The notes under the pieces were generated by a model. The model had not been told where the DNA came from. It ran no database searches and worked only from the letters and a program-made list of their open reading frames with translations. The position numbers and the translations under genes are program-made. 64,000 bases of DNA, from contig JALWFG010000016.1 in assembly GCA_027038965.1 (NCBI GenBank), positions 124,001 through 188,000 of the forward strand. The letters are read 5' to 3'. Each line of letters opens with the position of its first letter. Positions within the stretch are counted from its first letter, which is position 1. This DNA is from Candidatus Desulfofervidaceae bacterium. Its GTDB lineage: Bacteria > Desulfobacterota > Desulfofervidia > Desulfofervidales > Desulfofervidaceae. Below are positions 57,475-60,896 of the stretch, piece by piece.

Positions 57475-57837
57475 TCAATCACTAAGGGCTTCTTTAACAG
57501 ATTTTTTTAGCTCTTCTATTTTTATAGGTTTTGGGAAAAAGTCAAACACACGTTCTCTTAAGGCCTCAATGGCGGTGTCCAAAGTAGCATAGGCCGTAAT
57601 CATGATAACTTTTGTTCCTGGGTAAAGGTGGTTGACTCTCCTTAATATTTCCATTCCATCTATGTCTTCCATCTTCAAATCCGTGATTACCAGATCAAAC
57701 TTTTTCTCTTTTATCCTTTCTAAAGCCTTTTTGCTGTCTGTAAACGTTTCTACATCATAACCCTCTTTACTTAAAACCATTTTGGTCATTTTACAAACAA
57801 CTTCTTCATCATCTATTACAATAATACTTTTAGCCAT
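57475..57837 (-). CDS. Single-domain response regulator
   Basis: 120 residues, a receiver domain only. Acidic pair IDDEE (about 8-12), phospho-acceptor Asp in LVITDLKM (about 53), switch Thr in MITAYAT and Lys in FFPKPIKI (about 104). No output domain, so it probably acts through protein-protein contact or as a phosphorelay link. Overlaps the histidine kinase stop by eight bases, its obvious partner. Confidence 0.93.
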
Positions 57838-59263
57838 TTGCCCCCTCCTTATTTTCCTGATAAGCAGGTAACTCTATCGTAAAAGTTGTTCCTTTTCCCA
57901 CTTCGGTTTCTACAGATATCTTTCCATTGTGCTGTTTTATGATACCATAACTGACAGATAATCCCAAACCCGTCCCTTTAGTGCCTTTGGTGGTAAAGAA
58001 AGGATCAAAGATGTGAGGCAGAATCTCAGGTTTAATACCGCTACCTGTATCTTTTACTCTTATGACTACCTTATCTTTTAACTCTGGGCTGTAAACATCA
58101 ACAAAAAGGTCTCCTCCACCAGACATGGCATGAATGGCATTGGTAAAAAGGTTAATCAACACCTGCTGAATTTGATTCTCATCGACGTATATTGAAGGCA
58201 ACTTTGGTGCAAATGTTTTATGAAGCCTTATTTTAGATACTCGCAATTGATTTTCTACCAAAGAAATGCTTTTTTCTACAATTTCTTTCGGATTACACAC
58301 CTTGAATTCTGGTTTTTTCTGACGGGCAAAATCCAGCAGATTACGGACAATCTTTCTAATTCTCTCTGTTTGGATTTGGATATCTTTCATAAACTGTTTT
58401 TTTTCCTCGTCGCTCAAACTGTCAAAATAAGAGAGGTATCCTTCTGCCAACATAGAGATATTGTTCAATGGGTTTCCTAATTCATGGGCTACACCTGAGA
58501 TAAGAACTCCTAAGGAAGCTAACTTTTTTGCTTGGAGGAGCTGTTCTTCCCGTTTTTCTAATTCTTGGGCCATTTTTGCAATGGCATTGATGACAAGCCC
58601 GATTTCATCTTCAGGCTCTGATTCTTGGACAGCCACCTCGTGAAACTGCCCTTTAGCAACTGTATGAGTTAAGGATTCCATTTTTGCCAATTTTTTGGCA
58701 AGCAAGGTGGAAAAATAGTGCCATCTAAATAATTGTGAAAAAAAGATTCCCAAAATGGACAAAATTAACATAACTGTGCTTTGGTGGATAATTTCATTTA
58801 TCTTACGGTGTTCGCTTTTAATCAAGTGTGTAGAAAGCTGAGTCAAATTATGTCCCAGATCCCTTAGATAAGATGCAAATTCAGGACTGGCTGCGGGTTT
58901 TTTGATGTTTTGGATAGTAGCAAGGTATTTATCCAGCGTTTGAATAAGAGAATTATATGTATCTTTACCCAAAACAGAAGTGAGTTTCTCTTGAGAGCGC
59001 TTTAAGGTTCGGTAAGCAATGCTTCCTTTATGGTAGGCTTCTGTTAAGGCATCTGGGTCATGATATAAAAAATAATTCTTTTCTGCCTTTCTCATTTCTA
59101 AAAAAGAAATGTTGATGTCATCAAATTCCTCAATAAAGCGAAGCTTAGACAAGACGGTTTTGAATGTCAAAAATATAAAGACTGAAATGGCAGCGATAAG
59201 GGTTGCTTCTATAAATATAGCAACATTAATCTTTTGTCTAATGGAGAGTTTTCTTCTATTCAT
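57830..59263 (-). CDS. Membrane-bound sensor histidine kinase
   Basis: 477 residues from the ATG at 59263 (ATGAATAG, overlapping the stop of the upstream gene). Two membrane helices (about residues 14-36 and 175-192) enclose a helical periplasmic sensor of about 140 residues. A HAMP-like region follows (about 195-250), then HisKA with the phospho-His in GVAHELGNPLNNISML (about 262) and HATPase motifs NLFTNAIHAMSGGG, DTGSGI and GTGLGLSVSYGI. It signals to the receiver protein encoded next. The stimulus is unknown. Confidence 0.93.
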   Translation of the reverse strand: MNRRKLSIRQKINVAIFIEATLIAAISVFIFLTFKTVLSKLRFIEEFDDINISFLEMRKAEKNYFLYHDPDALTEAYHKGSIAYRTLKRSQEKLTSVLGKDTYNSLIQTLDKYLATIQNIKKPAASPEFASYLRDLGHNLTQLSTHLIKSEHRKINEIIHQSTVMLILSILGIFFSQLFRWHYFSTLLAKKLAKMESLTHTVAKGQFHEVAVQESEPEDEIGLVINAIAKMAQELEKREEQLLQAKKLASLGVLISGVAHELGNPLNNISMLAEGYLSYFDSLSDEEKKQFMKDIQIQTERIRKIVRNLLDFARQKKPEFKVCNPKEIVEKSISLVENQLRVSKIRLHKTFAPKLPSIYVDENQIQQVLINLFTNAIHAMSGGGDLFVDVYSPELKDKVVIRVKDTGSGIKPEILPHIFDPFFTTKGTKGTGLGLSVSYGIIKQHNGKISVETEVGKGTTFTIELPAYQENKEGANG

Positions 59264-60062
59264 TATTTTGTTTTTTGCCTTTTTTGAAGGAACCAAACCT
59301 CAAAAGTTGTTTAATTTCATTTTCTCTTTTGTCTAAGGCCTCATAGGTCAAATCTGCCTCCAGTTGTCTCAAAATTTTTCTCTCATGAAAAAGGGTATCT
59401 TTAAACATATGGGCAGCTACCCCTATTACAGAGGCTCCAAGGAGAATAATTCCAAAATCTAAAATAGTCCACCATCCCCAACCAAAATAGCGGATAAAGC
59501 CGCATCCTAAGGCAATAAACCCTACACCAGTTCTTAAATAAGAAAGCTCTGTCCGAATTTTGGCCATAATGGTGCGGTATTGAGCAAAATTGGTTCGTTT
59601 GCGTGCCAAGTCCGTTCTTCCACCCGCCAAACGGGTCCTAATTTCAGCAAGCTTGGTGCGCATTTCAGCCCATTCAGTTCGCTTGTTGGCCAAGTCTGTC
59701 CGTTCTTTGGCAAGATCAGTTCGTTGGCTAGATAGCTCTGTTCTTTTATTGGCCAAATTGGTTCTTTGATTAGCCAGTTCAGTTCGTTTGTTAGCCAGCT
59801 CAGTTCGTTTATTTGCTAGCTCTGTTCTCTTATTGGCCAGCTCAGTTCGTTTATTGGCCAATTCCGTTCTCTTATTAGCCAGTTCGGTTCTGCCCTTGGC
59901 CAACTTTGTCCGGTCTTCGGCTAATTTGGTTCGATATTGAGCCAGCTTGGTCCGATCTTCAGCCAGGGCCTTTCTTTTTTCGGCCCACTCTTCCATTATC
60001 TTGATAAATTCTTCATGAAAAATTTCTGAGGCTTTCTTTTCTTCGTGGTTATCATTGTTCAT
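59256..60062 (-). CDS. RT-heptad coiled-coil protein with DUF202-like membrane domain
   Basis: 268 residues from the ATG at 60062 (GGGAG seven bases upstream; an ATG at 60068 is the alternative). Residues about 30-183 are 21 uninterrupted 7-residue repeats of the type L-A-x-x-R-T-x (NKRTELA being commonest). Then follow two hydrophobic segments (GVGFIALGCGFIRYF and ILDFGIILLGASVIGVAAHMF, about 181-226) and a 40-residue charged tail. The RT motif plus the two helices recall DUF202 proteins, where RT-motif repeats occur only a few times. It overlaps the histidine kinase start, so it is probably co-made with and may modulate that kinase; this is inference. Confidence 0.8.
   Translation of the reverse strand: MNNDNHEEKKASEIFHEEFIKIMEEWAEKRKALAEDRTKLAQYRTKLAEDRTKLAKGRTELANKRTELANKRTELANKRTELANKRTELANKRTELANQRTNLANKRTELSSQRTDLAKERTDLANKRTEWAEMRTKLAEIRTRLAGGRTDLARKRTNFAQYRTIMAKIRTELSYLRTGVGFIALGCGFIRYFGWGWWTILDFGIILLGASVIGVAAHMFKDTLFHERKILRQLEADLTYEALDKRENEIKQLLRFGSFKKGKKQNNE
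59514..59975 (-). repeat. Tandem 21-bp coding repeats (LAxxRTx heptads)
   Basis: About 22 units of 21 bases encode the RT heptads. The centre (about 59740-59880) is nearly identical in protein but varies at synonymous positions (ACT/ACA/ACC, AAC/AAT), so the repeat is old and held by selection on the protein rather than freshly expanded DNA. Confidence 0.9.
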
Positions 60063-60068
60063 GACCAT

Positions 60069-60413
60069 TCTCCCTTTTTATCTTGCTAACAATTTAAAAG
60101 AAAGCGTTAACTTAAAACGGAGCCATTATACCTTTTTTTGCTGAAAAATCAAGGTTTTTATGTTATTTTCTAAAAAAATGAGAAAAATCTTTTCAAATTG
60201 CTTACAGGTTTATTCTACTTTGTTTTGTTTTAGCAAAAAGGAATTGATGCCTTAACAAGGCAAGGCCTGTGGGTGAGTAGCCCAATAGCCAAATTTATGC
60301 TTCGACTGAAGCAGTAATATTTTTAAGCCTAATCGCAGATTTAGGGTCTTGACATAATGAAACTGATCATTTAAGTCTTGATTTGTTTTATCAACTTTAA
60401 AAGGGTAAAAAAG
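60069..60413. other. Intergenic region, 345 bp, no gene seen
   Basis: Divergent promoters must lie here. Two small perfect hairpins: TGCCTT-AAC-AAGGCA (60248-60262) and TGCTTC-GACT-GAAGCA (60298-60313). GTGGGTGAG at 60269-60277 is the reverse complement of a motif also present at 8185 and 52665. A TTGACA at 60349-60354 has no convincing -10. No ORF with coding character. Confidence 0.5.
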
Positions 60414-60896
60414 ATGAAAAGGAAAGTTGTTTCGCCTTTGGCCCGGGCCTGGGGGATTTTAGTCTTTATTGCTGGATTTATTAATCAGGTCTTGATTTAT
60501 TTTCAAAGGGCTAGATTTACTTCTTTAATCTTTTTCATTACAACAGCCGTAGGTTTTGGGTATACGCTTATTAAACTAACCGGATGGTTTAAGGGTGAAG
60601 AGAGACTAGAGGAAAAACAGATTCTGGCGGTATGGTTGTTGGTTTTGTTGAGTGCACCTCTTTGGATTGGTTTGTTTGGTTTATATCAAACTGTCCAAAT
60701 AGTTCGAGCTTGGATGTTTTTTATAGCCTTAGGGTTGTGTCTCTCAAGCATTGTGCGTCAAATAAAATTGGATTTCTTATGGGCAATTTTACCATCTACT
60801 GGCATTTTTTTATCATTTATTTTCCCTGCATATAATTTTGCAATTATGGGTATTTCTATTGGATGGGCTTTGATATTTTATTCGTTTTGCTTTTAG
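60414..60896 (+). CDS. Small membrane protein of unknown function
   Basis: 160 residues from the ATG at 60414 (AAAGGG upstream). About five hydrophobic segments (roughly residues 10-26, 32-52, 72-94, 98-116, 122-156) and a charged loop GEERLEEKQI (about 62-71). No motif recognised and no partner gene nearby; mutL follows after 225 bases. Confidence 0.6.
   Translation: MKRKVVSPLARAWGILVFIAGFINQVLIYFQRARFTSLIFFITTAVGFGYTLIKLTGWFKGEERLEEKQILAVWLLVLLSAPLWIGLFGLYQTVQIVRAWMFFIALGLCLSSIVRQIKLDFLWAILPSTGIFLSFIFPAYNFAIMGISIGWALIFYSFCF

Follow-up and report, generated by a model that had tools for sequence, protein, structure and literature searches.

DUF202 (PF02656) is a widespread membrane domain for which we know of no established bacterial function. 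Typical members of the family, which includes E. coli YidH and its relatives, are short and have one or two RT heptads and no kinase. The only solved DUF202-type structure that we found is that of yeast VTC (7ytj, 8i6v, and 9umg), a pentamer whose upper polyphosphate channel is lined by K24 and R31 on TM1 of Vtc1, two residues spaced seven apart; R31 is one of the residues where this channel is narrowest (PMC9911596). On the signalling side, the closest described systems are the histidine kinases of the NtrB/AtoS/ZraS type with their NtrC-type regulators, and single-domain receivers such as CheY and CpdR. In the 64,000-nucleotide stretch analysed here (the window), which comes from a sulphate-reducing bacterium, a DUF202-type protein with a long RT coil is encoded by the first gene of a triad, followed by a histidine kinase and a lone receiver.

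The RT-coil gene (59256..60062, reverse strand) encodes 268 residues from the ATG at 60062. The open reading frame extends to 60068 (270 residues), but 60062 is the better start because a Shine-Dalgarno sequence, AAGGGAG (60070-60076), lies 7 nt upstream, in agreement with the start chosen in an earlier note on this DNA. Between residues 39 and 179 of the 270-aa protein, an RT dipeptide occurs at exactly every seventh residue, 21 times in all, which gives an unbroken series of 21 RTx[L]Axx heptads (residues 39-180; 59529..59954, reverse strand), and the longest RT run in 20,000 composition-preserving shuffles was 3. The count and regularity described in the earlier note were thus confirmed, and its coil of about 150 residues could be refined: the strict RT heptads cover ~142 residues and lie within a helix predicted to be 184 residues long (residues 12-195). 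Between coil units, codon positions 1, 2, and 3 differ in 42, 15, and 66% of the comparisons, respectively, and five Arg codons are used in 19 units, in line with the proposal that the protein sequence has been kept despite synonymous drift. The invariance of R and T in the presence of near-saturated third positions marks the repeat as ancient and maintained by purifying selection, and not as a product of recent slippage. Over 172 units from six species, heptad position 1 is R in every unit and position 2 is T in 168; position 4 is mostly L, F, W, or M, position 5 is mostly A or S, and positions 3, 6, and 7 are variable. Since the conserved residues lie on one arc of the helix, L-R-A-T, centred on R and A, this Arg face is probably an interaction face. 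The coil is strongly basic, with a net charge of +21 over 134 residues. Upstream of the triad, a promoter-like TTGATT-16-TATAAT site is present at 60125..60152 (reverse strand), a consensus match alone in a region where 10 such sites were found against 7.5 expected, and a divergent 172-aa hydrophobic protein of no confident family is encoded at 60378-60896 (forward strand).

The coil leads into a divergent DUF202 domain, which bears out the earlier assignment of the protein as DUF202-like. The Pfam match spans the end of the coil, TM1, a turn, and TM2 (residues 165-222; 59403..59576, reverse strand) and scores 24.2 bits, just above the cut-off of 23.4; the relatives score 25-49 bits. The motif of the family itself is the RT pair directly ahead of TM1; the coil is an extension of this motif, repeated 21 times. 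The coil proteins depart from the typical short members in their 21-37 heptads, their conserved cytoplasmic tail, and the kinase/receiver operon in which they are encoded. The AlphaFold2 (AF2) monomer model predicts one unbroken helix (residues 12-195) in which the coil runs straight into TM1, followed by a turn, a helix at residues 201-240, and a tail helix, with confidence above 90 across much of the coil, lower confidence in the membrane part, and a pTM of 0.33. The C-terminal helical tail (residues 223-270 in the model; 59259..59402, reverse strand) is the point at which a receiver is fused in the type D relatives described below. The two membrane helices of the earlier note are plausible, given the helical hairpin that AF2 places after the RT motif, whereas hydropathy calls TM2 alone, the first helix being weakly hydrophobic and containing R193. 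Searches of PDB sequences with the protein and its profile returned chance coiled-coil matches alone, a Foldseek search with two models gave no significant match, and the NCBIfam matches were low-scoring coiled-coil models, all below their cut-offs. The Pfam matches to FBF1, ATG14, and TPR_MLP, all below cut-off for the window protein, were rejected as coil artefacts.

The three genes of the triad are tightly packed. The kinase gene (57830..59263, reverse strand) starts with an ATG placed within the final codons of the coil gene (AATAATGAATAG); the ATG of the receiver gene (57475..57837, reverse strand) overlaps the kinase stop. The kinase consists of a transmembrane segment, a periplasmic domain of ~120 aa with FLEMRKAEKNYFLYHD, a second transmembrane segment, a HAMP-like region, HisKA, and HATPase_c. 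The Pfam matches of HisKA and HATPase_c are over the cut-off, with the motifs HELGNPL and DTGSGI present, and that of HAMP is below it. The best-scoring kinase models are AtoS and ZraS. The receiver, of 120 aa, matches Response_reg at residues 5-114 (106.9 bits) with an invariant ITDLKM motif, and Pfam detected neither a sigma-54 activation domain nor a DNA-binding output on it. It resembles CheY and CpdR in having no output domain; it differs from them in that its gene overlaps its kinase gene and in that related receivers are fused to a membrane protein in the type D relatives.

Ten long-coil loci, all with an orthologous kinase and receiver, were found: the window, L019-L022, L093, L094, L106, L107, and the decayed L023. 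Two of the ten are damaged copies. L022 is a frame-shifted draft, and L023 has damage in all three triad genes with the next gene, gltX, intact, and is either a relic or a faulty assembly; the collapsed copy of the whole triad (L023:1353-2140) lies upstream of gltX as in the window. The homologues come from Candidatus Desulfofervidaceae, Desulfohalobiaceae, Desulfonauticus, Desulfothermus okinawensis, and another family of the phylum. The genome of the window falls in or near the first of these families, and L019 carries the same gene as G001, a genome placed in the genus of the window. The RT counts across the long-coil proteins are 21, 28, 35, 26 (plus two degenerate), 36, 28, 37, and 24. 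A pattern of 21, 28, and 35 repeats is therefore broken by the further relatives (36, 37, and 24), which are three members of one genus in which both coil ends are fixed and the middle is elastic. An exact ruler is ruled out by this range of 24-37 heptads within a genus. Coil indels between aligned close relatives are all multiples of 7. Because the length varies in whole heptads while R and T are fixed and the third positions are near saturation, the RT coil appears to be neither a neutral tract nor a fixed ruler.

In order to place the kinase, a profile of its sensor region was searched over 395 genomes of the phylum. After the long-coil kinases, the next-scoring ones adjoin a second architecture (type B), found at nine loci in nine genomes (L083-L091). 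It comprises two tandem proteins that both carry MshEN at the N-terminus. One has three DUF202 domains and the other two, and each DUF202 is preceded by a short RT run. MshEN is a family known for cyclic-di-GMP binding; it is absent from the window RT-coil protein in Pfam. A maximum-likelihood tree gathered all the RT-DUF202-linked kinases in one clade (100/99), which splits into a long-coil branch (100/99) and a multi-DUF202 branch, so that the architecture of the partner follows kinase clades A and B. Fifteen of the 16 kinases in the clade are RT-DUF202-linked. The exception, from G137 (L092), lies inside the multi-DUF202 branch and has kept its receiver with no RT-DUF202 gene beside it; the gene has probably been lost. 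The 16 outgroup kinases all come from genomes with no match to the RT-DUF202 profile (Fisher p for linkage, 6e-8, which overstates independence because the rows are related by descent). The likeness of the triad kinase to the NtrB/AtoS/ZraS type, seen in its best models, extends to the nearest outgroup kinases, which pair with receiver-Sigma54_activat regulators. All ten outgroup regulators scanned have this layout, whereas in the RT clade all 16 regulators are bare receivers next to the kinase, accompanied, with the one exception above, by an RT-DUF202 gene. RT-DUF202 is thus locked to one kinase clade and a bare receiver, where the outgroups have a DNA-binding-type regulator. Together with the overlapping starts and the ten long-coil loci, the clade substantiates the genetic coupling claimed in the earlier note. 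That note had regarded homologues away from kinases and a freely varying repeat number as evidence against its module. The repeat number does vary (21-37), and six loci carry shorter RT-DUF202 proteins away from this kinase; every long-coil form, by contrast, is kinase-linked, and its length changes between aligned close relatives in whole heptads.

A third arrangement bears on the role of the receiver. Type D relatives, found in three genomes belonging to a single family, have an RT-DUF202 protein that carries a receiver at its C-terminus as a fusion (L095:7436-8470, L096:6726-7778, and L098:2645-3697). The fusion was tested with Pfam in one genome (DUF202 at 142-200 and receiver at 227-334) and recognised in the other two by profile and alignment. 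The fused receivers group with the lone receivers of the triads (98/94), apart from a second receiver family of the neighbourhoods; they sit on a long branch, and that of L098 seems to have Asn at the phospho-acceptor Asp site. The position of the fusion indicates that the C-terminal tail of RT-DUF202 is cytoplasmic, and the fusion and the grouping suggest that the receiver acts on the RT-DUF202 protein.

Some recurrent neighbours and relatives are recorded here. The type D genes adjoin a PPDK-like gene, and proteins of ~860 aa that combine PPDK_N with PEP-utilizers domains (assigned by Pfam in L020) are found repeatedly next to RT-DUF202 loci (L020:1418-4012, L094:8133-10712, L084:1468-4191, L088, L089, and L095), amid Usp, Alph_Pro_TM, and TauE-like genes and a second lone receiver. 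Several of them seem to have no catalytic T/S-S-H motif. In the genome of the window, two PPDK-like genes (C11:56620-62053) lie ~5 kb from a paralogue of the triad kinase. Shorter RT-DUF202 proteins not linked to the triad kinase are encoded next to a cytidylate-kinase-like gene (PF13189, tested in L100) at L083:12172-12894, L100:6280-7083, and L102:6900-7601. A plasmid search found one cyanobacterial DUF202 cluster, without the triad kinase (L103, Leptolyngbya plasmid NZ_CP046157.1); it has four DUF202 genes close together, one of which has RT heptads fused to an apparent multi-helix transporter domain, and lies near sulfatase-related genes.

We tentatively propose, at slightly less than an even chance, that the three genes form one membrane signalling module in which the signal passes from the kinase to the receiver and then to RT-DUF202, the membrane assembly being the output. 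The transmembrane kinase, whose domains are evident, would sense a signal with its conserved periplasmic domain and autophosphorylate; it would then phosphorylate the lone receiver, as the gene order and overlap suggest. In view of the receiver fusions and the loss of the DNA-binding regulator, the receiver may act on RT-DUF202 at the cytoplasmic face of the membrane. The AF2 model, the DUF202 homology, and VTC point to a protein that could self-assemble through its R-T-L-A face into a long helical bundle on a membrane base, the long helix running from the cytoplasm straight into TM1 of DUF202. Phosphorylation would alter the state of this assembly, be it a stalk, a gate, or a scaffold, and the heptad phase would be essential but the total coil length would not. 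We infer the direction of signalling, the oligomer, and the Arg lumen. The order of the genes fits an accessory sensor equally well as an output, and it is possible, although rather unlikely, that RT-DUF202 works upstream, sensing the membrane state or a cytoplasmic ligand and controlling the kinase through its stalk, while the lone receiver has its target elsewhere, such as motility or an enzyme. The kinase start that overlaps the preceding coil gene, the partner architecture that follows the kinase clades, and the MshEN of the type B partners, which is N-terminal like an input domain, are all consistent with an upstream accessory. The fused receiver, however, puts RT-DUF202 downstream of phosphorylation in type D, the DNA-binding regulator is missing exactly in the RT kinase clade, and there is no sign of mechanical sensing. 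The fusion and the loss of the regulator speak more for an output than for a sensor, and the mechanical or scaffold sensor suggested in the earlier note, whose overall interpretation is partly supported, receives no backing from any sign of force sensing.

The length of the coil admits two further explanations. A membrane-tethered filament or spacer, whether cytoskeleton-like or a scaffold for a kinase array on which the kinase is clustered, with its length set by heptad gain and loss, would suit the predicted continuous 184-residue helix, the relatives with 28-37 heptads, and the fixed coil ends with an elastic middle; we regard it as very doubtful, as there is no sign of filaments and the type B partners have short RT runs in place of a long coil, which implies that the kinase needs no long spacer. 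Least probable of all, and close to negligible, is a neutral or slippage-driven tract on an ordinary DUF202 protein with a coincidental kinase neighbourhood. The wide variation of the repeat number (21 to 37, and 24, 36, and 37 in one genus) is what such a tract would show, but it is contradicted by the invariance of R and T, with R in 172 of 172 units despite near-saturated third positions, and by indels locked to the heptad phase. That the long-coil loci of different classes are all linked to this one kinase and receiver, and that the linkage clusters on the kinase tree, also argues against coincidence. The analogy with VTC leads to a more specific reading, in which RT-DUF202 is a transporter or channel for a polyphosphate-like anion, its Arg-lined TM1 continuing into an Arg-lined cytoplasmic bundle and the kinase and receiver acting as the gate. 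Vtc1 resembles the coil protein in its DUF202-type domain and the heptad spacing of the channel-lining K24 and R31. By motif, R31 matches R172 of the coil protein and is the Arg of the ERT motif, the DUF202 position that the coil repeats, although the link was made by a PDB alignment through a cyanobacterial DUF202 (chain 8i6v) with a weak E-value of 0.06. The net charge of the coil would also suit a polyanion. If the coil protein shares the VTC geometry, its 21 Arg side chains would point towards the axis of a helical bundle. Against these points, the coil protein has two predicted transmembrane segments, with no third hydrophobic one, and no partner polyphosphate polymerase (TTM or SPX domains) or other polyphosphate enzyme was recognised among the neighbours of the type A-D loci. 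The sequence and fold searches with the coil protein did not reach VTC significantly, its chains giving an E-value of 1.9 and an rmsd of 16 in Foldseek, and acidic lipid, nucleic acid, or protein would be equally possible ligands of a basic face. We therefore consider such an anion channel improbable. Similarly speculative, and to our mind unlikely by a wide measure, is a DUF202 assembly gated by the phosphorelay, in which the Arg that lines the pore in TM1, repeated 21-37 times, would build a 20-35 nm Arg/Thr-lined cytoplasmic bundle on a membrane channel; this would be a two-component output of a new class, directed at a polyanion conduit or tether rather than at DNA.

Returning to the membrane assembly as an output, we came across no account of such a module in the open-licence literature, as the earlier note had supposed; apparent matches in one paper for DUF202 with a histidine kinase concerned DUF2023 and DUF2027 and not DUF202. 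The triad may be an undescribed signalling module that acts at the membrane instead of on DNA. The coil is a natural helix design of extreme regularity, whose conserved face is centred on Arg. DUF202 is here tied to one particular clade of kinases and to a bare receiver, and elsewhere it is fused to a receiver, which gives a handle on the function of this domain and a testable output. If our proposal is true, two-component signalling would gain an output that acts at the membrane.
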